Part shown: positions 1,919 through 50,684 of the stretch, one piece after another
Layout: the number at the start of each line of letters is the position of its first letter
How positions within the stretch are numbered: the first letter of the stretch is position 1
Assembly (NCBI GenBank): GCA_017404785.1
Contig: JAFRBQ010000008.1
Span: 230,212 to 294,211, forward strand
Source of the DNA: Erysipelotrichaceae bacterium
Lineage (GTDB): Bacteria; Bacillota_I; Bacilli_A; Erysipelotrichales; Erysipelotrichaceae
Reading direction: 5' to 3'
Length of the DNA stretch: 64,000 nucleotides
Made by a program: the position numbers and the translations under genes
Notes under the pieces: generated by a model
Databases searched by the model: none
What the model was told of the DNA's origin: nothing
The model's input: only the letters and a program-made list of their open reading frames with translations

Positions 1919-4207
1919 ATGAATGAAAACATTATTAAAAGTATAGCTGATGAACTTAAGATCTCAGTTAAACAGGTAGAAACAGTCTTAAAGATGCTGC
2001 AGGAAGGAGATACAGTTCCTTTTATTGCCAGATATCGTAAGGAAGCTACCGGAGCTCTTGATGAAGAAGCTATCCTGTTTATTGAAAAACAGTATAAATA
2101 TGAACTCAATCTGGCTGAAAGAAAGGAAAGTGTCATCAACCTCATCGAAACACAGGGCAAGATGACTGAAGAACTCAGAAAACAGATCAATGACTGTACA
2201 AAACTGTCACAGGTCGAAGATCTTTACAAGCCATATAAGCAGAAGAAAAAGACCAGAGCCGGTATTGCGATCAAGAATGGTCTTGAACCATTGAGTGTCT
2301 ATTTATTGTCCTTGCCAGAAAACGGCGATCTTGAAAAGGAAGCAGAAAAATACATCAATGAGAACGTCAAGGATGTAAATGAAGCTATTCAGGGTGCCAA
2401 GGATATCGTTGCGGAGAATGTTTCCGATAACGCCAACCTGAGATGGAAATTCACGGATCTGATCGTCAAGGCGGGAGCCATTGTCACCAATATCAAGAAA
2501 GATGCTGTCGATGAGAAGAAAGTCTATGAAATGTACTATGACTATTCCGAAAAGATCTCCAATATCGCTGATCACAGAGTTATGGCGATCGATAGAGCTG
2601 AAAAGGAAAAGGTCATCAGTGTATCCATGTCTTATGATCTTGAACATATCAAGCAGCTGGCACATGAATTCTATCTCAAGAATAAACAGAGCAATCTTGA
2701 ATCATATCTGATTGATGCGATTGATGACGGTATCAACAGACTGCTGATGCCTTCGATTGAAAACGAGATCAGAAGCGATCTTTCCGAGAAGGCTCACAAT
2801 ACTTCGATCGAAGTATTCTCCCTGAATCTGGAAAAACTGCTTTCTCAGGCTCCGTTAAAGGGCAGAGTCGTACTGGGCTTTGACCCCGGCTACTATAACG
2901 GCTGCAAACTGGCCGTTCTTGATGAAACAGGCAAGATGCTGACAGTAGACAAGGTCTATCCGTTCAGAAAAGACGGTGAGATCGAAAAGAGTAAGAAAAA
3001 GCTCCTTGAAATGATCAAAAAGTATGCCGTCAAGATCGTGGCTATCGGTAACGGCACCGCTTCAAGAGAATCAGAAAAACTGGTTGCTGAACTGATCAAG
3101 GAAAATGATCTTCAGGTTGAATATGCGATCGTGTCGGAAGCCGGCGCTTCTGTCTGGTCAGCTCAGGAAGAAGCCCGTAAGGAATTCCCTGATCTGGCTG
3201 TTGAAGAAAGATCAGCTGTATCGATCGGCAGAAGACTTCTGGATCCGCTTGCTGAACTGATCAAGATCGATCCTAAATCGATCGGTGTCGGACAGTATCA
3301 GCATGATCTTCCGGAAAAGGCTTTGAATGAAAGACTTGATGAAGCGATCATGAAAGTCGTAAACAGAGTCGGCGCCGATGTCAATACCGCTTCAGTAGAA
3401 CTATTACAGCATATATCCGGTCTTAATAAAGGCATCGCAGCCGAGATCATCAACTACCGCAATGAAAACGGCAAGTTTACCAACAGACAGCAGCTTCTTA
3501 AAGTCAAGAAACTGGGTGCTAAAGCCTTTGAACAGTGTGCGGGATTCTTAAGGATCATCGATGGTGAAGAACCGCTGGATGCAACCAACATCCACCCTGA
3601 ATCATATGATCTTGCCAAGCAGATCATGAAGGTTTCCAATATCACTAAATTGGGTGATCCGGATATTACTTTCAACGAAGAAGAGATAAAGAAGCTGTCT
3701 GCCGATGAATATACGATCAACGATATAAAGGACTGCATTAAGGCTCCGTTAAGAGACTATCGTGATCAGTTTGACGGTGCAATTCTTAAATCAAATGTCC
3801 TGGAACTCAAGGATCTCAAGAAGGGTGATGAATTATCCGGAACAGTAAGAAATGTTGTCGACTTCGGTGCGTTCGTTGATATCGGTCTGCATGATGATGG
3901 ACTGGTTCATATCTCCAGAATGTCTATGAACAGAGTAAATCATCCAAGTGAAGTCGTATCTGTCTCTGATATCGTCAAGGTCTATGTCTATGATGTTGAT
4001 GAAGTCAAACAGAGAGTTCAGTTATCATTGCTTCCATTGGATGAACTCGCCAGAAGAGATGAAATGAAAAAGGAAAGATCTCTCAAGAAAGCTCATAACC
4101 GTCCTTACAGCAAGGAAAAGCAGAATAAGGAAAAACCGGTAGAGAAAGAGATCTCCGAAGAAGAAGCCATGAAGAGGCTTTTGGAAAGATTTGGTTCCAA
4201 ATACTAA
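1919..4207 (+). CDS. tex: Tex family S1 RNA-binding transcription accessory protein
   Basis: A 762-residue cytoplasmic nucleic-acid-binding protein with the full Tex architecture. The N-terminal helical Tex domain contains the family hallmark TVPFIARYRKEATGALDEE around residue 35. A YqgF-like RNase H fold begins near residue 314 (VVLGFDPGYYNGCKLAVLD), helix-hairpin-helix motifs follow around 490-560 (IAAEIINYRNENGKFTNR), and an S1 domain lies at about 635-705 (GTVRNVVDFGAFVDIG). The C-terminal tail is basic. Tex proteins bind structured RNA and DNA and affect transcription. The start is the ATG at 1919, with GAGGTG eight bases upstream; a TTG six bases earlier is less likely. It is a single-gene unit. 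Confidence 0.95.
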   Translation: MNENIIKSIADELKISVKQVETVLKMLQEGDTVPFIARYRKEATGALDEEAILFIEKQYKYELNLAERKESVINLIETQGKMTEELRKQINDCTKLSQVEDLYKPYKQKKKTRAGIAIKNGLEPLSVYLLSLPENGDLEKEAEKYINENVKDVNEAIQGAKDIVAENVSDNANLRWKFTDLIVKAGAIVTNIKKDAVDEKKVYEMYYDYSEKISNIADHRVMAIDRAEKEKVISVSMSYDLEHIKQLAHEFYLKNKQSNLESYLIDAIDDGINRLLMPSIENEIRSDLSEKAHNTSIEVFSLNLEKLLSQAPLKGRVVLGFDPGYYNGCKLAVLDETGKMLTVDKVYPFRKDGEIEKSKKKLLEMIKKYAVKIVAIGNGTASRESEKLVAELIKENDLQVEYAIVSEAGASVWSAQEEARKEFPDLAVEERSAVSIGRRLLDPLAELIKIDPKSIGVGQYQHDLPEKALNERLDEAIMKVVNRVGADVNTASVELLQHISGLNKGIAAEIINYRNENGKFTNRQQLLKVKKLGAKAFEQCAGFLRIIDGEEPLDATNIHPESYDLAKQIMKVSNITKLGDPDITFNEEEIKKLSADEYTINDIKDCIKAPLRDYRDQFDGAILKSNVLELKDLKKGDELSGTVRNVVDFGAFVDIGLHDDGLVHISRMSMNRVNHPSEVVSVSDIVKVYVYDVDEVKQRVQLSLLPLDELARRDEMKKERSLKKAHNRPYSKEKQNKEKPVEKEISEEEAMKRLLERFGSKY

Positions 4208-12420: not shown

Positions 12421-12509
12421 TTATGTTAATAATACTATCTAAAAATGTTTATTCAGCTGTTTTTCACAAGAGTATAATTATTTACGTATTGTAAAAAGAG
12501 GGGTTTTGT

Positions 12510-13781
12510 ATGAAAAAGGTTATGGTATGCGGATGTGGAGTACAAGGCTCTACAATATGTCGAAAACTTGATGAAGAACCGAATATAGAGGAAATAGTCT
12601 GTGCCGATTATGATCTTGATGCGGCGAAAGCTGTTTGCAGGATGATGAAAAAAGGCACACCTAAGAAAGTGAACGCCCAGAATCTTGAAGAGATCAAGGA
12701 AGCTGCCAGAGGCTGCGAACTTCTGATAAACGTCATGCCTTTGCAGTTTGGCGCCAACATGCTGAAAGCGGCCATGGATCTGGGCTGCTGTTATCAGGAT
12801 CTCGCGGCAGCTGAAAGCATTCCGGAAGTCATGAATATTGACCGTTACGATCGCTGGGTCGCCGGTATCAGGTATATGTATGAAAACTATGGCAAGGTCT
12901 TTGCGAAAAACAAAACAACCGCGATAATCGGCACAGGATCAGCTCCGGGAGTAATGTGCGTGATGGCCAGAAGATGCATGAAAGAACTTGATGAGTGCGA
13001 CACCATAAACATGATGGTCTATGAAGGCGTTGAAGCAAAACGCTTTCTGCCGTTCTGGTGGAGCACGGATGTGGCTTTAGCCGACATGCAGGAAGATGCC
13101 TTTGCCTATAAGGACGGAAAAATCGTGCGCACCAGACCTTTCAGTCATAAGATTTACAGGAAATGGCCGGAGTATGATATGCATCCCGTCATGATGTGTG
13201 AGCACGCTCATGATGAACCGGTCTATGTGGCATTCAACGCCGAAAAGTATTTCAAAGGCTGCAGGAACGCCTATTTCAAATATGGCGGTGTAGGTATCGA
13301 ATTCTCTGAACCGCTCTATCGTGCTGGCCTGTTAAGCTATAAGGAAGAGGAAATCAACGGGCAGAAGATTGTTCCGCATGAACTGGTTCTCAGACATGTG
13401 CCTTTGGCTCCTAAGGATCCTGAAGAGATCAAGGCAATCATTGATGAAGGGCTGATAGCTGACGGCGGAGCCTTTGTCATTGAGGCCTATGGCAAAAAAG
13501 ACGGAAAGGATGTCGTGGTCGAACTTCACCTTAATGCCCCGGGCCTTGTCGAATCATACGAAAAGGCTAAGATGACCGGGGAGATGTATCTGACCGGCCA
13601 GGGCGCCTTCCTTTATACCAGACTGTTTGTCAACGATATGATCGATCAAAAAGGTCTGATCTCGTCAGACATGCTGAACGACAAACAGGTGAAGCAGTAT
13701 ATCCAGTGGGCTGAAGAACTTGGCATCACTTACACAATAGAGGTCAAAGAAGGTACAGTTCCGGAAGATCTCAGACAGTAA
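12510..13781 (+). CDS. Saccharopine dehydrogenase family NAD(P)-dependent enzyme
   Basis: A 423-residue cytoplasmic oxidoreductase. The N-terminal Rossmann fold has the dinucleotide motif VMVCGCGVQGSTICRKL (GxGxxG, residues 4-20) and an acidic residue after the second strand (CADYD). The family pattern continues with ELLINVMPLQFGANMLKAAM and a Gly-rich turn GTGSAPGVMC. This resembles saccharopine and lysine-6-dehydrogenase-like enzymes, but substrate cannot be read. AGAGGGG precedes the ATG at 12510. It is monocistronic, between tRNA-Leu and a strong terminator. Confidence 0.85.
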   Translation: MKKVMVCGCGVQGSTICRKLDEEPNIEEIVCADYDLDAAKAVCRMMKKGTPKKVNAQNLEEIKEAARGCELLINVMPLQFGANMLKAAMDLGCCYQDLAAAESIPEVMNIDRYDRWVAGIRYMYENYGKVFAKNKTTAIIGTGSAPGVMCVMARRCMKELDECDTINMMVYEGVEAKRFLPFWWSTDVALADMQEDAFAYKDGKIVRTRPFSHKIYRKWPEYDMHPVMMCEHAHDEPVYVAFNAEKYFKGCRNAYFKYGGVGIEFSEPLYRAGLLSYKEEEINGQKIVPHELVLRHVPLAPKDPEEIKAIIDEGLIADGGAFVIEAYGKKDGKDVVVELHLNAPGLVESYEKAKMTGEMYLTGQGAFLYTRLFVNDMIDQKGLISSDMLNDKQVKQYIQWAEELGITYTIEVKEGTVPEDLRQ

Positions 13782-21835: not shown

Positions 21836-21861
21836 GCCCTGCGAAAGCAGGGCGTTATAAT
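21836..21861 (+). promoter_or_regulatory. GNRA hairpin and leaderless promoter of the CDF gene
   Basis: GCCCTGC / GCAGGGC with a GAAA tetraloop (21836-21853) is probably the dfx terminator, though its T run is short. Directly after it TATAAT (21856-21861) stands 7 nt before the ATG of the next gene, which has no ribosome site. That arrangement predicts a leaderless message. Confidence 0.55.
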
Positions 21862-21868
21862 ATTTGAT

Positions 21869-23002
21869 ATGAGCTTAATATATAAACTGTTTAAATTGGA
21901 TAGAAATTCAAGGGAAGGCGTTGTATCAGCAACATCCATCCTTTCGATCATCGTCAATATCTCGGTTGCCTTGCTTAAGGTCGTTGTCGGTATTCTGGCA
22001 GCATCCATCGCCATTATTTCCGAAGGTGTCAACAACGCTACGGATGCTCTGTCATCACTATTGACACTTATCGGCATCAAACTTGCCAACCGCAAGCCAA
22101 ACAAGGAACATCCTTTTGGCTATGGCCGCATGGAATATATCACCAACCTGATCATTTCTGCGATCATCATTCTTTCCGGTACTTATACATTGAAGGATTC
22201 CGTTGTGAAGATCTTCTTCCCGGAAGAGCTGAATACGACACTTCTTTCGATCATCCTGGTGGCAGTTTCTGCAGTGATCAAGTATGTGCTTGGTACCTAT
22301 ACGATATCTCAGGGCAAGAAGGTCAATTCCGATACTCTGATCGCTGTCGGTATGGATTGCCGCAACGATTCCTTTGTCTCACTGGTGACTATCGGTGTTT
22401 CGCTTGTCTATATCCTGTTTGGCAAGAATATCGATGCCTTTGCGGGTGTCTTTACTTCTTATCTGATCCTTAAAGCCGGTTATGAGATCATGTCCAAGAC
22501 GATCTCTGAACTTCTGGGTCAGCCAGCCGATGAAGAACTGGCCAGAGAACTGTACAGAAAGATCAGATCGACCGATGGTGTAATCAATGCGGTAGATATG
22601 GTCCTTCACAACTATGGACCGGATATGTATACCGGTTCAGTGAACGTTGAAGTCGATCACAAGATGACAGCTGCCCAGATCTTTGAATTCCTGAGAGTTC
22701 TGCAGGGCAAGATCTATGAAGAACATCGTGTCGCCATGGTCTTTGGTATCTATGCGGTCGATAATGATTCAAAGGATAACAAGAAACTCAGAAAACAGAT
22801 CACTGATTTTGCGAAAAGCAATCCGCATATCAAGTCTTACCATGCGGTATATTCTGATGCGAAGTCCAACAGTATCTATTGCGATATCGTCGTTGACTAT
22901 GATGCCGACCGTAAACAGATCTATCAGGATTTCTCCGCCTATCTTCAGGAACTTTATCCTGACAAGAACATTCAGGTCAATCTTGATACCGAATTTGTGT
23001 AG
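21869..23002 (+). CDS. Cation diffusion facilitator transporter
   Basis: A 377-residue transporter: six membrane helices (residues 20-195) and a C-terminal cytoplasmic domain. The metal-site region of TM2 reads SEGVNNATDAL and that of TM5 GMDCRNDSFVS, so metal-site A is N/D and D/D type rather than His-based, which resembles manganese- or iron-type members. The signature HPFGYGRMEYI follows TM2. The C-terminal domain (EHRVAMVFGIYAVD...) is longer than in typical CDF proteins and appears duplicated (a second RKQITDFAKSNPHI...VVDYDADRK segment). It has no ribosome site; see the leaderless promoter immediately upstream. Confidence 0.9.
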   Translation: MSLIYKLFKLDRNSREGVVSATSILSIIVNISVALLKVVVGILAASIAIISEGVNNATDALSSLLTLIGIKLANRKPNKEHPFGYGRMEYITNLIISAIIILSGTYTLKDSVVKIFFPEELNTTLLSIILVAVSAVIKYVLGTYTISQGKKVNSDTLIAVGMDCRNDSFVSLVTIGVSLVYILFGKNIDAFAGVFTSYLILKAGYEIMSKTISELLGQPADEELARELYRKIRSTDGVINAVDMVLHNYGPDMYTGSVNVEVDHKMTAAQIFEFLRVLQGKIYEEHRVAMVFGIYAVDNDSKDNKKLRKQITDFAKSNPHIKSYHAVYSDAKSNSIYCDIVVDYDADRKQIYQDFSAYLQELYPDKNIQVNLDTEFV

Positions 23003-23008
23003 TATCTG

Positions 23009-24784
23009 ATGACTAAAAAGAAGTTTTACAATACCTATATATGTTTTTTAGTGCTTATTGGAATAATAAGCATTTTCTTTTTGCGTGAAGAGAAGATCGT
23101 CAATGTCCTGGCTCCGGAAATTGATGGCGACATCATTGAACATGAAAGTCAGGAACAGCTACTCGATACCAGTATCAAGATCATGGCGGAAACCGTTGAT
23201 AATGGCTATGACATCTTCAAGCCTCTGGCCGGATCGTCAGGTTACCGCTATGGACCTTCGATCATCTATTACGAAGATGGCAGTATGGATGCCTGGTACG
23301 CTTCACCAGGAAACAACAACAGCGAATGGGACTGGATAAGCTACCGGCACTATGATGGGGAGCTCTGGAGCAGAGAAAAGATCGTCTTGCAGCCAAACGG
23401 CGGCAGTCTTGATACCTATTCGACCTGCGATCCTGGCGTGATCCATTTTAATGACTACTACTATCTTGCCTATACCTCAACGATCTGTTCGACTGACGGC
23501 GGTATAAACAACTCCATCTTTGTCGCCCGAAGCGCAAATCCCGATGGACCGTTTGAAAAGTGGAATGGTGAAGGCTGGGGTGGCGATCCATGGCCCTTGA
23601 TTCATTTTGAAGAGAATAATACAAACTGGGGTGCAGGTGAACCGAGCTTTGTCATCGCCGACAACAGGCTTTATATCTATTATTCCTGGAACTGCAAGGA
23701 AGGCTTTACTTTGAGATTATCTACAGCGGAACTTGTCGATGACTGGCCAGCTACAATTCATTATGAAGGAACGATTGAAGGCAAGAACGGCGACTCAATC
23801 GACGTATGTTTCGATGAGGAACACCACAAATTCATCGCCATCAATATCGAGGACTTCATGAACGACAATTCCGGCATCAAGTTCATGGAATCGGATGACG
23901 GTTTCAATTTCAAAAGATCGGGAGTCATCAGAGAAGGTATCTCTCAATATGCCCACAGCTGCGGTATCGCCAAACAGAAAGACGGCCATATCGAACTGGA
24001 TAAGGATCTGCTTATAGGCTATGCCTACGGGGCAAACTGGGGACAGTGGGCTTTACATGTGCAGAATATCAGGCTGAGTGCCTATCTTGGCCAGAGAAAG
24101 GCATTTTCAACTGAAAACAATATCAGAAGAGATCCGCGTGATCACGAAGGAGGATCATCCAACCTGGCCGGAATCAGTGTGGCACCGCGGGTGATCGATG
24201 TCGATATCAGTGATCGTTACGCAGATATACCGGTATACGGCTATTCAAGATATAGATACATCATCGATATAAATGAAAACGAACTTTCCTATTCCGATTA
24301 TGACGAAGATATCATTGAGATATCCAAAGGAAGGATCATTCCCAAAAGTCCCGGCATAAGTAATGTCAGAGTTTCCTATGATGATAAATACACGACCTTT
24401 AAAGTTGTCGTCCATGACAAAGACTATGTATACAGGAAATATCCTGAAGTCTTGAGCATCTCGTCATTGAACACGGAGCGGACCTGGTATATGGAAGATG
24501 AAGGTGTTCAGCACGAGATCCAGATCAGGTCCTACATGGTGTTTGAAGATGGAAGAGTATCAGAAGGATATAATGATGTGAGTGCAGATCATCCATCCTA
24601 TCCGGTCAGAGCTGATGGCTCGGTATACCATTTTGAATACGAATCAGCCAATGAAGATATCCTGACCATTTCGGATACCGGTGATGTCCATCTGCACAGA
24701 CCTGGCAAGACAAATATCACCGTAAGGCTAGGGGAACTCTCTTACGAGATCGAAGTAACAGTCAATAAAAGAAGGCTCAATTAA
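23009..24784 (+). CDS. Membrane-anchored beta-propeller glycosidase-like protein with Ig-like domains
   Basis: A 591-residue extracellular protein with an uncleaved-looking N-terminal helix (YICFLVLIGIISIFFL). Residues about 70-370 form a five-bladed propeller-like region typical of GH43/GH32/GH62-type glycosidases: YRYGPSIIYYEDGSMDAWYA, a repeated blade start (DPGVIHFNDYYYLAYTST) and WGAGEPSFVIADNRLYIYYSW. The catalytic acids are not certain. The rest has Big_2-like sandwich modules (VKVSP-like IIDINENELSYSDYDEDIIE, GKTNITVRLG). It starts six bases after the CDF stop without a clear ribosome site and may depend on coupling. A terminator follows. Confidence 0.72.
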   Translation: MTKKKFYNTYICFLVLIGIISIFFLREEKIVNVLAPEIDGDIIEHESQEQLLDTSIKIMAETVDNGYDIFKPLAGSSGYRYGPSIIYYEDGSMDAWYASPGNNNSEWDWISYRHYDGELWSREKIVLQPNGGSLDTYSTCDPGVIHFNDYYYLAYTSTICSTDGGINNSIFVARSANPDGPFEKWNGEGWGGDPWPLIHFEENNTNWGAGEPSFVIADNRLYIYYSWNCKEGFTLRLSTAELVDDWPATIHYEGTIEGKNGDSIDVCFDEEHHKFIAINIEDFMNDNSGIKFMESDDGFNFKRSGVIREGISQYAHSCGIAKQKDGHIELDKDLLIGYAYGANWGQWALHVQNIRLSAYLGQRKAFSTENNIRRDPRDHEGGSSNLAGISVAPRVIDVDISDRYADIPVYGYSRYRYIIDINENELSYSDYDEDIIEISKGRIIPKSPGISNVRVSYDDKYTTFKVVVHDKDYVYRKYPEVLSISSLNTERTWYMEDEGVQHEIQIRSYMVFEDGRVSEGYNDVSADHPSYPVRADGSVYHFEYESANEDILTISDTGDVHLHRPGKTNITVRLGELSYEIEVTVNKRRLN

Positions 24785-24803
24785 GTCACGAAAGTGACTT
24801 TTT
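24783..24803 (+). terminator. Terminator after the propeller protein gene
   Basis: AAGTCAC / GTGACTT with a GAAA tetraloop and a T5 run; it begins at the stop codon. Confidence 0.85.
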
Positions 24804-24884
24804 AATTTCAGTTTTTCTTCATTTTCAGTTCAGATAGAGTTCACACAGGAAAAATAAGATATTAACCGTAAGGAGGGAAAAAGG

Positions 24885-25559
24885 ATGGAGACATTCAGAA
24901 GATATGAAAAGAAATACCTGCTTGAACAATCCCAGTATCTTGAACTTATGGATAAGCTGAAGGACAGGATCAGTAAGGACAAATTCTTTGAGGCAGATAT
25001 CCGTTCGATCTACTACGATACAAAAAAGTTTGAACTGATCAGAAGATCGATCGAAAAACCTGAATACAAGGAAAAACTCAGGATCAGATCCTACAATGAG
25101 CCAAAAGTAAATGATCTCGTATTTGTGGAACTGAAGAAGAAGCTTGATGGCATCGTCTATAAGCGAAGGACCAAAGCCTATATCGAAGATGTTCTGAATG
25201 ATATCTATGAATGTCAGTTCAAGGACCCCCAGGTCGGTGAGGAGATCAAATATGCCTTGAACTATTATGATCATCTGAAACCTGCTGTCTATATCGGCTG
25301 CAATAGAACATCGTATGTCGCCAATGATGACAGAGATCTCAGGATCACCTTCGACAAGGATGTCAGATACAGGATGAAACATCTTGATCTGAAAGCATCG
25401 AAAGATGACAAGCCCGTAACGGAAAAGATCATTATGGAGCTCAAAGTAAGAAATGCCATGCCGCTGTGGCTTACAGAAGCATTGGACGAAGTAAAAGCTT
25501 ACCCAAGAGGATTTTCAAAAGTGGGTACAGCGTTCTTGAAAGAAATAAGAGGAGAATAA
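24885..25559 (+). CDS. VTC domain polyphosphate polymerase-like protein
   Basis: A 224-residue protein consisting of a VTC/CYTH tunnel domain, as in the yeast vacuolar transporter chaperone catalytic subunit. The motifs are present: FRRYEKKYLL at the N terminus, SIYYDTKKFE, EKLRIRSYNEP with basic residues that line the tunnel, FVELKKKLDGIVYKRR and a closing MELKVRNAMPLWL. Other bacterial VTC proteins make polyphosphate from ATP or bind other polyanions; the substrate here is not known. AAGGAGGG precedes the ATG. It is followed by a DUF4956 membrane gene four bases later, a typical pairing. Confidence 0.88.
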   Translation: METFRRYEKKYLLEQSQYLELMDKLKDRISKDKFFEADIRSIYYDTKKFELIRRSIEKPEYKEKLRIRSYNEPKVNDLVFVELKKKLDGIVYKRRTKAYIEDVLNDIYECQFKDPQVGEEIKYALNYYDHLKPAVYIGCNRTSYVANDDRDLRITFDKDVRYRMKHLDLKASKDDKPVTEKIIMELKVRNAMPLWLTEALDEVKAYPRGFSKVGTAFLKEIRGE

Positions 25560-25563
25560 GAAG

Positions 25564-26238
25564 ATGGAGAACATTTTATCAAGTATTTTCACAGGTTCAT
25601 TGACCCTTGGACAGTTCCTGCTGGCGATTGGTGCCAGCATGATCCTGGGATTCATTGCCGCAATGGTATTCATGTACAAAAATACATACACAAAATCATT
25701 TATCACCGCACTTATCTTGATCCCAGCGATCGAGACCGTGGTAATCATGCTGGTAAACGATAATCTGGGTGTCGGTTTATCCGTAGCCGGATCGTTCGCT
25801 CTGATCAGATTCCGTTCCGTTAAAGGCAATGCCAAGGAACTGGCGGCTGTCTTCCTGGCCATGACGATCGGTATCATCTGCGGTACAGGCTATATCACGA
25901 TCGCAGCGATCTTCACTCTGATGCTTTGTGTGGTAATGTTCCTACTGGCTCTGACCGGTTTTGGCAAGACTTCAGAGAACGACAGATATCTCAAGATCAC
26001 GATCCCGGAATCCTTGAATTATGACGAAGTATTTGAAGGTGTTCTGGCTAAATACTGCACAAACTGGGAACTGGATTCAATCAAGACTCTGACTTTAGGT
26101 TCATTGTTCAGAGTCGACTATAAAGTAACTTTGAAGGATGCTTCACATACCAAGAAGATGATCGACGAGATCAGGACCAGAAACGGAAATCTTGAGATCA
26201 TGTGCAGCAGACCTGCGACAAACAGAGAAGAATTATAA
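25564..26238 (+). CDS. DUF4956 family membrane protein
   Basis: A 224-residue protein with four to five N-terminal membrane helices (residues 12-145), the DUF4956 core LSVAGSFALIRFRSVKGNAKE and a soluble ferredoxin-like end (residues 150-224). Such proteins occur next to VTC-domain genes and are thought to be their membrane partners, possibly exporting or anchoring the product; this is association-based inference. The start has AAGAGGAG upstream. Confidence 0.9.
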   Translation: MENILSSIFTGSLTLGQFLLAIGASMILGFIAAMVFMYKNTYTKSFITALILIPAIETVVIMLVNDNLGVGLSVAGSFALIRFRSVKGNAKELAAVFLAMTIGIICGTGYITIAAIFTLMLCVVMFLLALTGFGKTSENDRYLKITIPESLNYDEVFEGVLAKYCTNWELDSIKTLTLGSLFRVDYKVTLKDASHTKKMIDEIRTRNGNLEIMCSRPATNREEL

Positions 26239-26249
26239 AAAGTAAGATT

Positions 26250-27641
26250 ATGAAAAAATTACTGATACTATTTATCACCGTGCTGCTTCTAAGCGGCTGC
26301 AGCACCGTGATATCCGACAATAAAACAGCTTCAGATGGCGAAGCTGCGAACTACAATATGAGTTTTACGGAATCAGAAACAGATTCCTCATACTCGATCA
26401 ACGGTTCAACTTATGTGACACTTGGCGATGATGATCTGAATATCAGAAAGGGTGGCACATATATCCTTGAAGGTACTTTGAATGGCAGCATCATCATCGA
26501 AGTTTCCGAAAAGGAAGATGTTCAGCTTGTCCTGAATAATGTGACGATCAATTCGGGCGATTTTGCGGGCATCTACATCATCGAAGGTGACGAGATAACG
26601 ATCACTCTGGCAGAAGGTTCGGAAAATACGATCGTTGATTCAGGTGAATATGTACAGATCGATGACAATGATGTCGATGCGCTCATATATTCCAAGGCCG
26701 ATCTGATCATCAACGGATCAGGAACACTGAATCTTGGTTCTAAATACAATCATGGTATCGTATCCAAGGATGATCTTGTCATAACTGGCGGAAACTTCAA
26801 TATTGATGTCGCAGGTCAAGGCTTGAGAGGCAAGGACTGTGTCAAGATCCTGGACGGAACCTTCAACATCAGCAGTGACAAGGATGCGATCAAATCCGAT
26901 AATGATGAAGACGAATACAGAGGCTATGTCTATATTACGGGTGGAACATTCTCTATCGATTCGAAAGCCGATGGCATTTACGGATATAATCTTGTAAATA
27001 TTGAAGGCGGAACATTCGATATAAAGACCAGCACTTCTGCAGATGCCGACTCATATAAGGCGATCAAATCTGATTATTCGATCACGATAAGTGGAGGCAG
27101 CTTCATAATCAACAGCACCGATGATGGTCTTAACAGCAATAATGACTTATATATAAGTGGCGGAGAATTTGATATCACCTCCAGTGATGATGCCATCCAT
27201 GGCGATGCGACAGTTACGATCGATGATGGTGAATTCACCATTAATGCTGCAGAAGGCATTGAAAGTACCTATGTGACGATCAATGGCGGAAATATCTCCA
27301 TTAACGCTTCCGATGACGGTATCAATGCCGGACAGAAGGTTGAGACCTACACGCCAACTGTAGAGATAAACGGCGGCAATCTGACCATTGTTATGGGACA
27401 GGGCGATACTGATGGTATCGATGCCAACGGCAACATCTATGTCAATGGCGGAACAGTCAATATTACAGGTCAGTTCGCATTCGATTTTGACAATGTTGCT
27501 GAACATAACGGCGGCACGATCATCGTTAATGGCGAAGAGATCGATGAGATCACCGGCCAGATGATGGGTGGAGGCATGCAAGGAATGGGTGGCATGAATC
27601 CTGGTGGCATGAATCCGGGCGGATTTGGCCACGGACATTAA
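26250..27641 (+). CDS. Beta-helix carbohydrate-binding-like lipoprotein
   Basis: A 463-residue lipoprotein. The ATG at 26250 gives MKKLLILFITVLLLSGC with the acylated Cys near residue 17; earlier in-frame starts would lengthen the head unnaturally and lie within the preceding gene. From about residue 55 there are at least ten similar strands spaced about 22-27 residues with ITGGNFNI / YISGGEFDIT / TINGGNISIN patterns, which build a right-handed parallel beta-helix as in Cthe_2159-like polysaccharide-binding proteins. Acidic pairs at loop ends could bind calcium. It ends with a Met/Gly-rich tail (MMGGGMQGMGGMN). It follows VTC and DUF4956 in one operon, with a terminator after it. Confidence 0.8.
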   Translation: MKKLLILFITVLLLSGCSTVISDNKTASDGEAANYNMSFTESETDSSYSINGSTYVTLGDDDLNIRKGGTYILEGTLNGSIIIEVSEKEDVQLVLNNVTINSGDFAGIYIIEGDEITITLAEGSENTIVDSGEYVQIDDNDVDALIYSKADLIINGSGTLNLGSKYNHGIVSKDDLVITGGNFNIDVAGQGLRGKDCVKILDGTFNISSDKDAIKSDNDEDEYRGYVYITGGTFSIDSKADGIYGYNLVNIEGGTFDIKTSTSADADSYKAIKSDYSITISGGSFIINSTDDGLNSNNDLYISGGEFDITSSDDAIHGDATVTIDDGEFTINAAEGIESTYVTINGGNISINASDDGINAGQKVETYTPTVEINGGNLTIVMGQGDTDGIDANGNIYVNGGTVNITGQFAFDFDNVAEHNGGTIIVNGEEIDEITGQMMGGGMQGMGGMNPGGMNPGGFGHGH

Positions 27642-27660
27642 AGCTCGCAAGAGCTTTTTT
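27641..27660 (+). terminator. Terminator of the VTC-DUF4956-beta-helix operon
   Basis: AAGCTC / GAGCTT with a GCAA tetraloop and a T6 run directly after the stop. Confidence 0.8.
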
Positions 27661-28784: not shown

Positions 28785-30008
28785 ATGAAGAAAGTTCTAA
28801 TGATATTACTGATCTCGTTAATGATGTTGTTAAGCACAAACACATTAAGTGCTGCCGGCGAACATGTGGTGATCAAAACCGAACCGGAAGTCATCAGCTA
28901 TGAACAGCTCAATGAACTTGAAAACGATCTTATCCATATCGACCAGGATTATGGAATCTCGATCTATGTTATCTTCGATCAGAGCATTGATGATCTGGTG
29001 GCCTATGCGGATGATTTCTCCGCCCGTTATTTCGATAATACGAATAATGTCGGCCTGTTCATCAATTCGCAATACTATTACGTTTTAGCTGAAGGATCTG
29101 CCAGCGATGTCATCGAAGAGAATATCGACAATCTCTGGAATGATTTCCTGTATTATGCACAGGCTGCCAGCTCACCTGAAGATGGCTACCTGTTCAAAGC
29201 CATCCAGACCTTCTATCAGAGCTGTGTGAGACTGATCAACGGCGAAGTCTATCAGAGCAATGTGCCGGGGGTCGTCGTAGCCACTCCATATGTCAACGAC
29301 TTTGCGGATCTGTTGAGTGACAGTGAGGAACTTGAACTCAACAAGAAGCTTCTGGCCTACAAGAACCGCTATGGACTGGACGCGGTCATCGTAACGACAA
29401 ATTCGACCAACGGTATGTATATCAGTGATTATACAGACGATTTCTATGACTACAACGGTTATGGAAACGACGGCATCATCCTGGTGCTGGATATGGGCGA
29501 AAGAGACTGGTGGTTCTCGACCAAAGGAAAGGGCATTACCTATTTCACGGATTACGGCATCGACACGATCATCGATGATATGCTGGATGATCTAAAGAGC
29601 GGTCGTTACTACAGTGCTTTCAATACCTTTGCGAATGATGTCGAATACTTTACCCAGAAAGGCATTGAAGGAAGCGTCATTGATTATACGCCTTCCAAAG
29701 CCACATTCGGTATCGACAATGTCGTGATCTCTGCTGCTATTGGCCTGATCGGTGCTCTGATAACAATGGGTATCCTCAAAGGTCAGATGCGCAGTGTATC
29801 AAGACAGTATATGGCTCACAATTATGTCGTCAACAATTCATTCATGTTGACAGGTGCTTCGGATCTGTTTGTAAACAGACACGTTACCCGAAGCAGAAGA
29901 CCTGAGCCGACAAGGAGCAGCGGCGGAGGAGGCGGCTACTCAGGCGGTTCATCAACTCATACGTCTTCAAGTGGATCCAGCCATGGCGGACATGGCGGTC
30001 ACTTCTAG
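28785..30008 (+). CDS. TPM domain membrane protein, YdjH-like
   Basis: A 407-residue exported protein: signal peptide (MKKVLMILLISLMMLLSTNTLSA), an N-terminal TPM-like fold (residues 35-150), and a more canonical TPM domain at about 165-300 with DGIILVLDMGERDWWFSTKG. A membrane helix follows (VVISAAIGLIGALITMGIL near 320) and the end is a Gly/Ser/His-rich tail (GGGGGYSGGSS, HGGHGGHF). It is the second gene of the YdjGHI-like operon, two bases after the first. TPM proteins take part in membrane assembly processes; the TPM phosphatase activity known in plants need not apply here. Confidence 0.85.
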   Translation: MKKVLMILLISLMMLLSTNTLSAAGEHVVIKTEPEVISYEQLNELENDLIHIDQDYGISIYVIFDQSIDDLVAYADDFSARYFDNTNNVGLFINSQYYYVLAEGSASDVIEENIDNLWNDFLYYAQAASSPEDGYLFKAIQTFYQSCVRLINGEVYQSNVPGVVVATPYVNDFADLLSDSEELELNKKLLAYKNRYGLDAVIVTTNSTNGMYISDYTDDFYDYNGYGNDGIILVLDMGERDWWFSTKGKGITYFTDYGIDTIIDDMLDDLKSGRYYSAFNTFANDVEYFTQKGIEGSVIDYTPSKATFGIDNVVISAAIGLIGALITMGILKGQMRSVSRQYMAHNYVVNNSFMLTGASDLFVNRHVTRSRRPEPTRSSGGGGGYSGGSSTHTSSSGSSHGGHGGHF

Positions 30009-30042
30009 ATAAATAATAATTAAATCGAAGGAGGAATAAATA

Positions 30043-31104
30043 ATGGGTTTAATTAAAGCTTTGGCTGGTTCTGTTATCGGTACAGCTCTTGAGACTTGGA
30101 AGGACTATTTTGTCTGCGATGCGTTGGACAATGAAACCCTGATGGTCAAAGGAATCAAGAGAGGTGGTTCAGGTTCAAATGAAATCATCACTAATGGTTC
30201 AGGTATCGTTGTAAACGACGGACAGTGCGCTATCGTTGTTGAAGATGGTACGATCATTGAAGTCGCTGCAGAACCAGGAAATTACACCTTTGATACATCT
30301 ATCTCTCCAAGTGTGTTTGATGGTGGATTCGAAGGTATCAAGAATGCATTCTTTGATGCATTGGGAAGATTTACTTACGGTGGTGAAGTAAATAAATCAC
30401 AGAGAGTTTACTACATCAACACCAAAGAGATCATGGGCAACATGTTCGGTACAGCTACTCCGATCCCATTCAAGATTGTTGACAGAAACATCAACCTTGA
30501 TGTCGATGTATCTGCAAGATGCAATGGCGAATACTCATTCAAGATCGTCAACCCTGTAACTTTCTACAAGAACGTTGTAGGCAATACAAGAGACAGATTT
30601 GAAAAAGAAGAGATCGCTTCAATGATGAAGGCTGAAATGATGAACACATTGAACGTTGCCTTCTCAGAAGTTTCATCAAAGAATCTGCGTGTTTCTGATC
30701 TGCCTGCTCAGACAGAAGAACTCTCTGCAGCATTGAATAATGCTTTGAATCAGAAGTGGACTGAAGGCAGAGGTATCGCATTCTGCAATATCGCTTTCAA
30801 CTCAATCACTATCCCTGAAGAAGATCAGAGAAAGATCTCTGAACTCCAGATGATCGCTGTCAACAGAGACAAGGGTATGGCTGATGCTACTATCATCTCT
30901 GCTATCAAGGATGCAGCCAATAACGAAGGTGGCGCAACTGTCGGTTTCATGAACCTGAATTCAGCTGCCAATACCGTTGCCGGCATTCTCAACAACAATC
31001 AGTCTGCAGCTCCTCAGGGTGCTACAGCATTCTGCCCTCACTGCGGTGCTGCTGTAAGTCCAGAAGACAAATTCTGCAGAAACTGTGGCAAACCTCTTCA
31101 GTAG
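30043..31104 (+). CDS. SPFH domain virion-core-like protein, YdjI-like
   Basis: A 353-residue SPFH (stomatin/flotillin-like) protein of the YdjI type. Residues 1-30 are an amphipathic helical start (GLIKALAGSVIGTALETWKD), the SPFH core runs from about 50 to 230 (VNDGQCAIVVEDGTIIEVA, YSFKIVNPVTFYKNVV), and a C-terminal zinc ribbon ends it (CPHCGAA/CRNCGKP). GGAGG lies 8 bases before the ATG. It ends the operon with two envelope proteins. In Bacillus, YdjI-like proteins pair with PspA for membrane stress; no PspA gene is present here. Confidence 0.87.
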   Translation: MGLIKALAGSVIGTALETWKDYFVCDALDNETLMVKGIKRGGSGSNEIITNGSGIVVNDGQCAIVVEDGTIIEVAAEPGNYTFDTSISPSVFDGGFEGIKNAFFDALGRFTYGGEVNKSQRVYYINTKEIMGNMFGTATPIPFKIVDRNINLDVDVSARCNGEYSFKIVNPVTFYKNVVGNTRDRFEKEEIASMMKAEMMNTLNVAFSEVSSKNLRVSDLPAQTEELSAALNNALNQKWTEGRGIAFCNIAFNSITIPEEDQRKISELQMIAVNRDKGMADATIISAIKDAANNEGGATVGFMNLNSAANTVAGILNNNQSAAPQGATAFCPHCGAAVSPEDKFCRNCGKPLQ

Positions 31105-31123
31105 AAAAAACATCTGAGACACT

Positions 31124-31148
31124 AAACTCCGGGTAAACCGGAGTTTTT
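31124..31148 (+). terminator. Terminator after the SPFH gene
   Basis: A 9-bp stem AAACTCCGG / CCGGAGTTT with a GTAAA loop, followed by TTG. Confidence 0.82.
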
Positions 31149-31174
31149 GTTTAAGAAGGAAATAACTGATATGA

Positions 31175-31180
31175 TATAAA
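31175..31180 (+). promoter_or_regulatory. Leaderless-type -10 of the Na/Pi cotransporter gene
   Basis: TATAAA stands 6 nt before the ATG at 31187 and no ribosome site is present. Confidence 0.5.
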
Positions 31181-31186
31181 TAACAG

Positions 31187-32797
31187 ATGAAATTTACTGA
31201 TATATTGTCTGTGCTTACCGGTTTAGCGATCTTCCTTTATGGCATGGAAGTCATGGGAAGTGGCTTCAAACATATGGCAGGTGGAAAGCTTCAGGGCTTT
31301 CTGGAGAAACTGACCAAGAAACCGATCGTCGCTTTACTTGCAGGCTTGCTCGTAACAGCATTAGTCCAGTCTTCAGGCGCCACGACAAGTATGCTCGTGA
31401 GTTTTGTCAATGCCGGGATCATGCGCGTTGAACAGACGGTCTACGTTATTCTGGGAAGCAATATCGGTACAACGATCACCGGCCACCTGATGGCTCTTGA
31501 TGTCGGACTGGTTGCGCCTTTTCTGGCTTTTATCGGTGTCTGTCTGATCATGTTTGTCAAAAACGACTATCTCAATGCGATAGGCGAGATCATGATGGGC
31601 TTGGGCTTTGTCTTTATCGGTATGGATACGATGTCGTCCGGTCTCGCTCCTTTGGGACAGTCGGAATTCTTCCTGAAGATCCTTTCCAGCATGCAGAATC
31701 CGATCTTCGGTATCCTGATCGGTTTTGTCCTTACGACGATCGTTCAGTCTTCTTCCGCATCCCTTGGTATCATACAGTCTCTGGCCAAGAGCGGTCTGGT
31801 CATGATCAAGGACGTCATGTATTTCAACCTGGGCCAGAACATCGGTTCGTGTACGACAGCCATGTTGGCATCACTCAGTTTCAACAGAGATGCCAAACGG
31901 GTCTCAATAATAAACTTTACCTTCAATATCGTGAATGCCTTGCTGTTTACGATCCTTTATTCGATCCTGCCGTTTGACAGATGGTATGAAGCACTTGCTC
32001 CGGGAAACGTCGTCAAACAGATCGCCTTTATGCATACGATAACCAACGTGATAACATCGGCTGTCTGCTTCCCGATCGCGAGGACACTGGCCAAAGTTGC
32101 CTATCTGATCATCCCTGATCAGGGCACCAAGAAATCCCTGCAGCCGGAGATCGTCGCAACACCGGAGATCGAAAACAACGCACCATTCAACATCTTCGGT
32201 ATCAATATCGAGATCAACAACATGTTTGAGATCATCAAACAGAGTATCTATATCAGCTTTAATGCTCTGCTTGAACATGTTTCGATCATCGAGGCGGTAA
32301 ACCAGAATGAACTTCAGGTCAACCGCATAAACAAGGGTATCACCAGAAACCTGCAGCTGTTGATGGCGTCCGATACCAATATGCAGGAAGCAAGACAGGC
32401 TTCCGCATTGTTCTCGATCAATATCGATCTTGAAAGAATTTCCGATCATACAGTCAATATCGCCGAAGCAGAAGAGAGCCTGATCAGAATGGACTCTCCG
32501 CTATCGCTGGAAGCCTATGATGAATTGAGTGAGCTTATGGATATCATCATGCAGTCCTTGAGAGCGATCGAAGATATGGCGACCGAAGACAGGGGAAAAC
32601 TGCTGGAGCTCGTCAGGGAAAATGAAGAACGGATCGATAAGATCTGTCAAAGGAACCGCGAGGCAGAGATCGAAAGAATGAGAAAGAGAAAAGATGAACC
32701 TAATTCAGGTATCATCTATTCCGAGTTGCTGATCGATGTCGAAAGGATCGGAGATCATCTGATCAGCGTAGCGGAAAGTTTGGCTCAAAACAGTTAA
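31187..32797 (+). CDS. Na/Pi cotransporter family protein with PhoU-like domain
   Basis: A 536-residue protein. Residues 1-310 hold two repeated transporter halves with QSSGATTSMLVSF (62-75) and QSSSASLGIIQSL (186-198), the QSS signatures of the NPT2 phosphate carriers; GSNIGTTITGHL and GQNIGSCTTAML mark the matching pair. A PhoU-like helical domain covers 350-536. It should take up phosphate with sodium. The start is predicted to be leaderless. It stands between two hairpins, so is monocistronic. Confidence 0.93.
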   Translation: MKFTDILSVLTGLAIFLYGMEVMGSGFKHMAGGKLQGFLEKLTKKPIVALLAGLLVTALVQSSGATTSMLVSFVNAGIMRVEQTVYVILGSNIGTTITGHLMALDVGLVAPFLAFIGVCLIMFVKNDYLNAIGEIMMGLGFVFIGMDTMSSGLAPLGQSEFFLKILSSMQNPIFGILIGFVLTTIVQSSSASLGIIQSLAKSGLVMIKDVMYFNLGQNIGSCTTAMLASLSFNRDAKRVSIINFTFNIVNALLFTILYSILPFDRWYEALAPGNVVKQIAFMHTITNVITSAVCFPIARTLAKVAYLIIPDQGTKKSLQPEIVATPEIENNAPFNIFGINIEINNMFEIIKQSIYISFNALLEHVSIIEAVNQNELQVNRINKGITRNLQLLMASDTNMQEARQASALFSINIDLERISDHTVNIAEAEESLIRMDSPLSLEAYDELSELMDIIMQSLRAIEDMATEDRGKLLELVRENEERIDKICQRNREAEIERMRKRKDEPNSGIIYSELLIDVERIGDHLISVAESLAQNS

Positions 32798-49463: not shown

Positions 49464-50561
49464 TTAATCTCTGGATGTTGCCTTGAGTTCGACCTGGAAC
49501 TTCATTTCCTTGTCATCTCTCATTACAGTTACAGTGACGACATCACCGATCGCTTTGGCATCAAGAGCTTTGGACAGATCAGCGTATGAATTTATCTCTA
49601 CATCATTGATAGCTGTGATGACATCATACTGCTGGATGCCGGCTTCATCGGCGCCACCGCCATCGATTACCGCTGAGATCACGACACCTTTTGTCACGTA
49701 ATACGAAGAATTGGTATATACTCTTACTCCCAATGATGCTCTGTCTTTAACATAGCCGTTTTCGATCAGTTCGTTGATGATCTTAACAACAGTATTGGAA
49801 GGGATCGCATAGCCCATACCTTCGATCGTGGTTGTAGAATAGGCAGAAGACTTCTTGGCATTGACGATACCGATCAGATTGCCGTTGATGTCAAACAGAC
49901 CACCACCGGAGTTTCCGGAGTTGATAGCCGCATTGGTCTGAATGACGGTCATGTAGACATTGTTGATATAGATCTCTTTTTCTAAGGCCGAAATAATGCC
50001 GTTGGAGCACGAAATGCCAAGTCCTAACGGATTACCGATGACGATCGCATCCGATCCCAGAGCCAGTTCTGATGAGTCTGCAAACGATGTGTATGGCAGA
50101 CCATCAAGATCGATCTTGATCACAGCCAGATCGGTTCTGGAATCTACACCAATCACCTTGGCCTGATAGGTCTCACCATTGTAGATCTTGACTTTGATCG
50201 TATTCTCATCGATCAGATTTTCCAAGACGTGTGCATTGGTCACGATGTAGCCATCTTCCGAGAAGATTACGCCTGAGCCTGTTGAAATGGCCGTCTGTGT
50301 GCCGCCGAAGAAGAAGCCTGAAGTATCAGCCTGAACCTTGCAGCTTACCTCTACGACAGTGTTGTATGCTTTTTCGATTGCTTTTGTATATTCGGTCTTT
50401 TCAACATTGGTATATTCAACCTCGTTGATCACAACATTGTCAGACTGAACAGGACTACCGTTTTTCTGAGTATAATACGATAAAACGCCAAATGTGCCTA
50501 AGCCCGAGCCAAGTAAGGCAACCAGAAAGATAATAAGAACAGTTTTAATATTTACTTTCAT
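49464..50561 (-). CDS. HtrA/DegP-type serine protease
   Basis: A 365-residue envelope protease. It has a short cytoplasmic start, one N-terminal membrane helix (LIIFLVALLGSGLGTFGVLS) and a trypsin-like domain. The catalytic triad is H111 (TNAHVLENL), D144 (SRTDLAVI) and S218 (NSGNSGGGLF). A PDZ domain closes it (ISAVIDGGGADEAGIQQYDVIT at about 280). It degrades misfolded proteins outside the membrane. The ATG at 50561 is chosen because GGAGGTGAGG lies directly before it; the earlier ATG at 50576 overlaps that site. Confidence 0.94.
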   Translation of the reverse strand: MKVNIKTVLIIFLVALLGSGLGTFGVLSYYTQKNGSPVQSDNVVINEVEYTNVEKTEYTKAIEKAYNTVVEVSCKVQADTSGFFFGGTQTAISTGSGVIFSEDGYIVTNAHVLENLIDENTIKVKIYNGETYQAKVIGVDSRTDLAVIKIDLDGLPYTSFADSSELALGSDAIVIGNPLGLGISCSNGIISALEKEIYINNVYMTVIQTNAAINSGNSGGGLFDINGNLIGIVNAKKSSAYSTTTIEGMGYAIPSNTVVKIINELIENGYVKDRASLGVRVYTNSSYYVTKGVVISAVIDGGGADEAGIQQYDVITAINDVEINSYADLSKALDAKAIGDVVTVTVMRDDKEMKFQVELKATSRD

Positions 50562-50684
50562 ATTCCTCACCTCCATACACTAATATAATTATCCAATGTG
50601 AACTTAAACTGAACTTTTATCAAATCGAAGTGAAATTGTATCTAAGAAAAGATCTCTAAATTTTACTTAAAAATCGATAAAATA

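Follow-up and report, generated by a model that had tools for sequence, protein, structure and literature searches.

The 64,000-nt window analysed here (positions 230,212 to 294,211 of contig JAFRBQ010000008.1, assembly GCA_017404785.1) came from an Erysipelotrichaceae bacterium whose genome, G000, was 76% complete. Its region 21869 to 27641 contained five genes on one strand, encoding a CDF cation efflux transporter, a membrane-anchored propeller protein, a VTC-domain protein, a DUF4956 membrane protein, and a Cthe_2159-type beta-helix lipoprotein (Table 1). All five open reading frames (ORFs) were present where the initial annotation had placed them, and four of the products fell into named Pfam families. 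The genes were separated by gaps of 6 bp (CDF–propeller), 100 bp (propeller–VTC), 4 bp (VTC–DUF4956), and 11 bp (DUF4956–Cthe_2159) and constituted two independent transcription units: (i) the CDF and propeller genes and (ii) the operon VTC–DUF4956–Cthe_2159 with its own promoter and terminator. The VTC promoter displayed a phased TTCA box that was also found upstream of htrA and of an OmpR-type response-regulator gene; given this sharing, the VTC module is most likely part of the extracytoplasmic or secretion-stress response, controlled by a two-component system for envelope stress that is linked to HtrA, and not of the response to phosphate starvation (PHO).

Table 1. Features of the two transcription units and of the box-bearing genes outside them (window positions, unless a contig of G000 is given)
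Feature	Position	Strand	Details
Hairpin GCCCTGC-GAAA-GCAGGGC	21836–21853	+	Separates the genes for desulfoferrodoxin and the CDF transporter; read directly; weak T tail, absent from the terminator scan list; probable end of the upstream (desulfoferrodoxin-side) unit
CDF cation efflux transporter	21869–23002	+	Cation_efflux PF01545, E 3.4e-40; TIGR01297 above cut-off; opens the two-gene unit on the upstream side
Propeller protein, glycoside-hydrolase-like, membrane-anchored, with C-terminal Ig-like region	23009–24784	+	591 aa
Intrinsic terminator of the CDF–propeller unit	24783–24800	+	Terminator scan
Four TTCA units, period 11: TTCAGTTTTTC TTCATTTTCAG TTCAGATAGAG TTCACA	24807–24845	+	Proposed response-regulator box
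-10 element TAAGAT	24855–24860	+	Lies 15 nt downstream of where the last TTCA begins
VTC-domain protein, triphosphate-tunnel polyphosphate polymerase type	24885–25559	+	PF09359, E 1.8e-35
DUF4956 membrane protein	25564–26238	+	PF16316, E 1.1e-15
Cthe_2159-type beta-helix lipoprotein	26250–27641	+	PF14262, E 6e-97
Intrinsic terminator of the VTC operon	27640–27657	+	Terminator scan
htrA	49464–50576	-	TIGR02037, E 1.6e-71, 241.5 bits, below the curated cut-off of 416.2; found with an HtrA query; 25 kb from the VTC box
TTCA box upstream of htrA, TTCAGTTTAAGTTCACA	50597–50613	-	-10 element TATATT at the same 15-nt offset
OmpR-type response-regulator gene	G000:C3:339–992		Same box upstream

The sequence comparison was applied to 58 VTC loci, composed of the window locus and 57 others fetched out of the places found (the own genus was complete and the others were selected), with each VTC start taken as the last ATG preceding the conserved motif. 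The TTCA triple occurred at three positions in the whole of the 76% complete own genome, two of them at the VTC promoter of the window. The exact pair TTCA-N7-TTCA was found at 15/25 VTC promoters of the Cthe_2159 class, 3/33 other VTC promoters, and 5/866 other upstream regions of the same loci (a set that included the window htrA), and other periods from 6 to 16 gave 0–7/25 in the Cthe_2159 class. A position weight matrix (PWM) was built from 27 regulator and htrA sites without any VTC site; these derived from 29 box-bearing promoters, the htrA pairs of L179 and L182 being excluded as doubtful here and retained in the exact-pair, three-gene, and -10 offset counts. At 10 bits or more, this matrix recognized 17/25 Cthe_2159-class VTC promoters, 3/33 others, and 8/866 controls, and the top control was the window htrA. 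Within the window, the upstream region of VTC scored 22.0 bits, that of the CDF gene 2.4, and that of the propeller gene 0.7.

Among the matches to the triple pattern in 26 genomes, two lay at genes for response regulators and two at genes for HtrA. The 30 regulator loci and 30 htrA loci then assayed were those returned by searches with one query protein each in 28 genomes, not every match, and the exact pair at period 11 was present in 14/30 and 15/30 of them, respectively, while other periods from 6 to 16 were seen at 0–1 regulator loci and 0–3 htrA loci. With the four loci already shown by the pattern search removed, 12/28 regulator and 13/28 htrA loci had the pair (Fisher 3e-16 and 9e-18, to be taken as a guide only, kinship among the genomes making the counts non-independent and the P values overstated). 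The genus pattern TTCANWTNRANTTCAC gave 13 matches in four of the six genus genomes and one for the reversed control: regulator, htrA, and VTC in each of the four, plus a second VTC gene (contig C22) in the own genome; this pattern had been derived from known sites, and its positives were partly there by construction, which does not apply to the absence of other matches. Among 23 genomes in which all three genes were assayed, the exact pair occurred at 17 VTC, 13 regulator, and 15 htrA promoters, and 15 genomes had it at VTC plus one other gene. Sharing of the box with both htrA and the regulator gene, by which an HtrA-linked two-component regulon is recognized, was observed in the own genome and in 11/23 genomes.

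The box was phased with the promoter as well. A -10 element (TANNNT) lay at offset 15 from the last TTCA in 22/47 promoters, and the lesser peaks at offsets 26 (8 promoters) and 37 (10 promoters) equalled 15 plus one and two periods; in the own genome, VTC, htrA, and regulator promoters were all at offset 15. In the mechanism proposed here, a response regulator of the OmpR family would bind the TTCA units every 11 bp (about TTCANWTNRANTTCACA in the genus) at a distance of 15 nt from the -10 element that follows, and the bound regulator would switch the VTC operon on rather than repress it, driving its own gene and htrA at the same time. The cytosolic VTC polymerase domain would then make polyphosphate, the DUF4956 membrane protein beside it would guide or export the product, and the acidic surface lipoprotein would bind or organise it outside the cell. 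VTC genes were common in the family (88/145 genomes), and a box shared with htrA and the likely regulator points to stress of the envelope or of secretion as their concrete trigger; being phased, the shared box also makes the function of the VTC module testable, and it sets the operon apart both from phosphate starvation and from the neighbour resembling sugar enzymes.

The regulator encoded on contig C3 gave many matches to OmpR-family models, and none of the 25 best of 94 reached its cut-off. Because these matches were generic and below cut-off, the regulator is best described as like CiaRH or CssRS in role and is assigned to neither. Those htrA-controlling two-component systems have an OmpR-type regulator and an htrA target, as here; CiaR controls htrA (PMC12826053), and the CiaR box of streptococci is the direct repeat TTTAAG-N5-TTTAAG with period 11 (PMC8186281), whereas the present box read TTCA(C/G)A and its putative targets include a VTC operon. 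In Streptomyces, htrA genes are likewise under the control of CutR, for which the binding sequence is TAWATAAA (PMC12802291). Two further response-regulator genes, both recognized by eye, were seen near box-like sites: (i) one in G006 (L037, 8285–8962, minus strand), divergent to the VTC operon and with its own site of 13.3 bits, and (ii) one in G082 (L139, 797–1465, minus strand; 222 aa), different from the assayed G082 regulator, which had none, and preceded by three TTCA units at period 11.

The VTC protein matched PF09359 with 123.1 bits (cut-off 23), and its profile retrieved Vtc4 (3g3q) from the PDB with an E value of 3.3e-19. Residues R66, R68, E82, K84, K86, R141, R153, E185, K187, S211, and K212, which would be expected to line the catalytic tunnel, were invariant in 18 sequences; the RxR motif (R66 and R68) was aligned to the RLR of Vtc4, and the late E185 was aligned to a Vtc4 glutamate in a weak segment of 2.4 bits. 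An inactive Vtc4 has been made by R264A/R266A/E426N (PMC9911596), and we take R66, R68, and E185 to correspond to R264, R266, and E426 and to be the putative catalytic residues. The VTC protein thereby appears to keep the residues expected of a polyphosphate polymerase, and polyphosphate is its probable product. Compared to the eukaryotic VTC complex, which has a VTC domain with the aligned residues, the 224-aa protein had no SPX domain, and the membrane part was a separate protein. A PPK1 match was found in 6/28 of these genomes and none in the 76% complete own genome, PPK2 being outside the search.

The DUF4956 protein displayed hydrophobic segments between residues 4 and 129 followed by a soluble C-terminal part, and its profile retrieved nothing convincing from the PDB (best 2ko1, E 0.03). 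Polyphosphate synthesis in yeast is coupled to translocation across the membrane (PMC9911596), and by analogy DUF4956 would be the natural candidate for the translocating part of the module. The lipoprotein more likely starts at ATG 26250 than at GTG 26202, with the N-terminus MKKLLILFITVLLLSGCS and, by eye, the lipobox LLSGC. It was strongly acidic (73 D/E versus 20 K/R); being so, its more probable ligands are predicted to be cations, or a polyanion bridged by them, with direct binding of a polyanion less likely.

Among the 58 VTC loci, DUF4956 was near VTC in 56 and directly after it in 54, and Cthe_2159 was the second gene after VTC in 25. The VTC/DUF4956/beta-helix group singled out by the initial annotation therefore held up as a genuine recurring module, with polymerase residues kept in VTC and an acidic exported lipoprotein. 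The tree of the 58 VTC proteins had two clades, of 25 and 33 rows, separated at 100/100 support: the window VTC belonged to the clade of 25, which held 23/25 of the Cthe_2159-linked genes, and the other clade held the remaining two. The own genome had three VTC genes, that of the window in the first clade and those on contigs C22 and C4 in the second. Third partners were assigned a family at few VTC loci only: CotH in L023, L029, and L055, no family match in L025, and, in L046, a gene upstream of VTC with LTD domains and without CotH; the window operon had PF14262 as its third gene and no CotH kinase partner. Locus L023 (G000:C22, site 3500–3515) was a second VTC–DUF4956 operon from the other clade; it included a CotH-kinase gene and again carried the box (TTCAGTTAGAGTTCACA), its offset to the -10 element unchanged. 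Three VTC genes of identical score in G112 (C1:2346850, 2417856, and 2488862) were spaced by exactly 71,006 bases; either a segment of about 71 kb is present in three tandem copies, or the assembly is at fault.

These modules resembled two known arrangements. At the pel loci of Gram-positive species (PMC7112168; PMC12345266), the accessory genes likewise encode a polymerase of VTC type next to a membrane protein of DUF4956 type, together with a third, exported partner, but in the window this partner was a Cthe_2159 beta-helix lipoprotein in place of CotH, and the promoter had an htrA-type box. The three genes are reported in PMC12345266 as not found together outside the Pel locus, while VTC–DUF4956–CotH was present here (L023 and L055 for example); few neighbours of these loci were annotated, and pel genes may lie nearby. 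The NELoc-2 cluster of Clostridium perfringens, VTC–'tubulin/FtsZ'–CotH–685 aa–HEAT (PMC2879425), resembled in order and size the VTC clusters of the second clade, which had CotH, a protein of about 700 aa, a HEAT protein, and a GT2 glycosyltransferase, and by analogy its 222–226-aa 'tubulin' proteins are probably DUF4956; the window operon belonged to the other VTC clade. The Cthe_2159-linked VTC clade is new as far as the open-access literature shows, and so is the regulation through a box of htrA type that is proposed for it: in the open-access subset searched, nothing was found that names a regulator of VTC/DUF4956 genes or describes an htrA-linked control of them.

Several observations weigh against control of the module by the htrA-linked system, or limit how far it extends. 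Besides the kinship among genomes and the partial circularity of the genus pattern, the triple pattern was only mildly enriched in the 26 genomes (42 matches versus 24 for the reversed control) and was not specific alone, and 8/25 Cthe_2159-class VTC promoters had no box at 10 bits. Offset 15 was seen at 11/14 regulator and 5/15 htrA promoters and at 6/18 VTC promoters, all six from this genus. No exact pair was found at any gene assayed in G006, G018, G060, G082, G088, and G112, nor at the genes assayed in G059 and G072, which had no VTC of the window clade; the pair was confined to VTC in G038 and G115, to the regulator in G128, and to htrA in G140, and the regulators of G050, G111, and G132 had none. 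The 15/23 genomes with the pair at VTC plus one other gene would be 13 without the doubtful htrA pairs of G050 and G132. Because the box-bearing regulators did not form one clade (the genus group was on a long branch), strict orthology of the genus regulator may not hold, or else the box has passed from one paralogue to another. The single-sequence AlphaFold model of DUF4956 was poor, with a predicted local distance difference test (pLDDT) score of 50, and the export role given to this protein is a conjecture.

Phosphate would be the expected signal for a polyphosphate polymerase, and the TTCA repeats could accordingly be read as a PHO box: the 11-bp period and the OmpR-family geometry are common to both, and the regulator scored well against PhoB models, though below their cut-offs. 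The pstS-type genes of relatives (30 loci merged to 25 distinct genes) had the TTCA pair in 0/25 and TTWACW-N5-TTWACW, with period 11 and presumably the classical PHO form, in 10/25, while the TTCA form was the one carried by htrA and the regulator gene. Since the pstS-type boxes differed from the TTCA box, PHO control was dropped and is regarded as highly unlikely; the one weak pstS match of the own genome had neither box, which stands on the side of the PHO reading and counts against the stress reading. It is possible but doubtful that the module makes or modifies a polysaccharide, a role that the accessory genes for CotH, polyphosphate polymerase, and DUF4956 may have at Pel loci, with a VTC domain that is no polyphosphate synthase. 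In streptococcal and clostridial species, accessory genes of this kind lie next to pelDEADAFG (PMC7112168); deletions of SIR_1592, a membrane protein gene in the DUF4956 position, and of CotH-like SIR_1594 alter Pel levels and aggregation in S. intermedius (PMC12345266); and Pfam labels Cthe_2159 as carbohydrate-binding. Against this stand the conserved VTC residues, a lipoprotein whose strong acidity makes it an odd partner for an anionic glycan, and the scan of ten genes between 20540 and 31101, in which no glycosyltransferase family appeared.

The initial annotation had suggested that the whole of 21869 to 27641 may be one cluster for making or altering a polyanion coat on the cell surface, with the pump and the propeller protein included. 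All the genes lay on one strand with the short gaps given above, and in G135 a CDF gene (67% identical) and, as judged by eye, a terminator-like hairpin directly preceded VTC, DUF4956, and Cthe_2159, in that order, with the propeller gene on another contig. The pump and the propeller protein do not appear to belong to the VTC module because a terminator and a separate promoter lay between the two units and the box was found only at VTC; the terminator scan of the region listed 13 terminator-like sites versus 6.4 expected by chance. In the 145 family genomes, the propeller query matched four: three had the propeller domain, all of this genus, and the fourth had the C-terminal Ig-like region only. 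The contigs bearing the propeller in the other two genomes had no VTC match, and neither had the 11 kb of the one relative found by a contig search (L022). A CDF gene was within five genes of VTC in 3/58 loci, one of them on the opposite strand, and adjoined VTC in 2/6 genus genomes; the G059 relative (54% identical) lay on a contig different from that of its VTC genes, and the best ones in G002, G092, and G115 were 34–36% identical. The CDF–propeller pair is local and weakly conserved. The two groups proved largely separate and independently regulated in relatives, the partial exception being the CDF gene, and a single five-gene coat cluster, with a terminator inside, no common box, and little conservation, was dropped as largely refuted and scarcely probable. 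The full five-gene set was seen only in the window among the loci examined.

Within control by the htrA-linked system, one elaboration assigns the polymer a role, although taken as a whole it is unlikely. Polyphosphate made by VTC and exported via DUF4956 would act as an inducible extracytoplasmic chaperone: through one and the same two-component system, misfolded exported protein would be answered by the protease HtrA together with a stabilising polyanion, which the acidic beta-helix lipoprotein would hold at the surface, possibly via divalent cations. In the sister operons, the secreted CotH kinase, with little ATP to draw on outside the cell, could take its phosphate from the exported polymer.

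The propeller ORF had one N-terminal hydrophobic segment and no Pfam family above cut-off. Its profile, composed of six sequences (its own, four from the genus, and one from a Clostridia metagenome-assembled genome), gave partial matches in the PDB to 5ta7 ('Glycoside Hydrolase', E 4.5e-12) and 3p2n (3,6-anhydro-alpha-L-galactosidase, E 1.1e-9), enzymes of a type that we take to be GH117, and weaker ones to arabinanase 4kcb (E 1.6e-6) and to 4kc7, a chain named family 43 (E 0.071). The resemblance to GH43 first suggested for it was dropped since 5ta7 and 3p2n outscored these two, and the protein appears closest by sequence to anhydro-galactosidase-type glycoside hydrolases, as a putative enzyme of this type. 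The single-sequence AlphaFold model was poor (pLDDT 36). In L033 (G115:C74, 4756–7049), the propeller protein was present as two tandem copies without the C-terminal Ig-like region, and a similar short paralogue, like these copies, was found at G000:C4:4888.

Elsewhere in the window, a box-like site TTCAGCTGTTTTTCACA of 18.2 bits (12452–12468, plus strand) lay upstream of an ORF at 12510 that was of saccharopine dehydrogenase type by eye; this site may be a chance match or a further target. Downstream of the VTC operon, the region 28785 to 32797 encoded a TPM-domain protein, an SPFH/Band 7 protein with a zinc ribbon, and, recognized by eye only, a protein resembling a Na/phosphate cotransporter with a PhoU-like tail.

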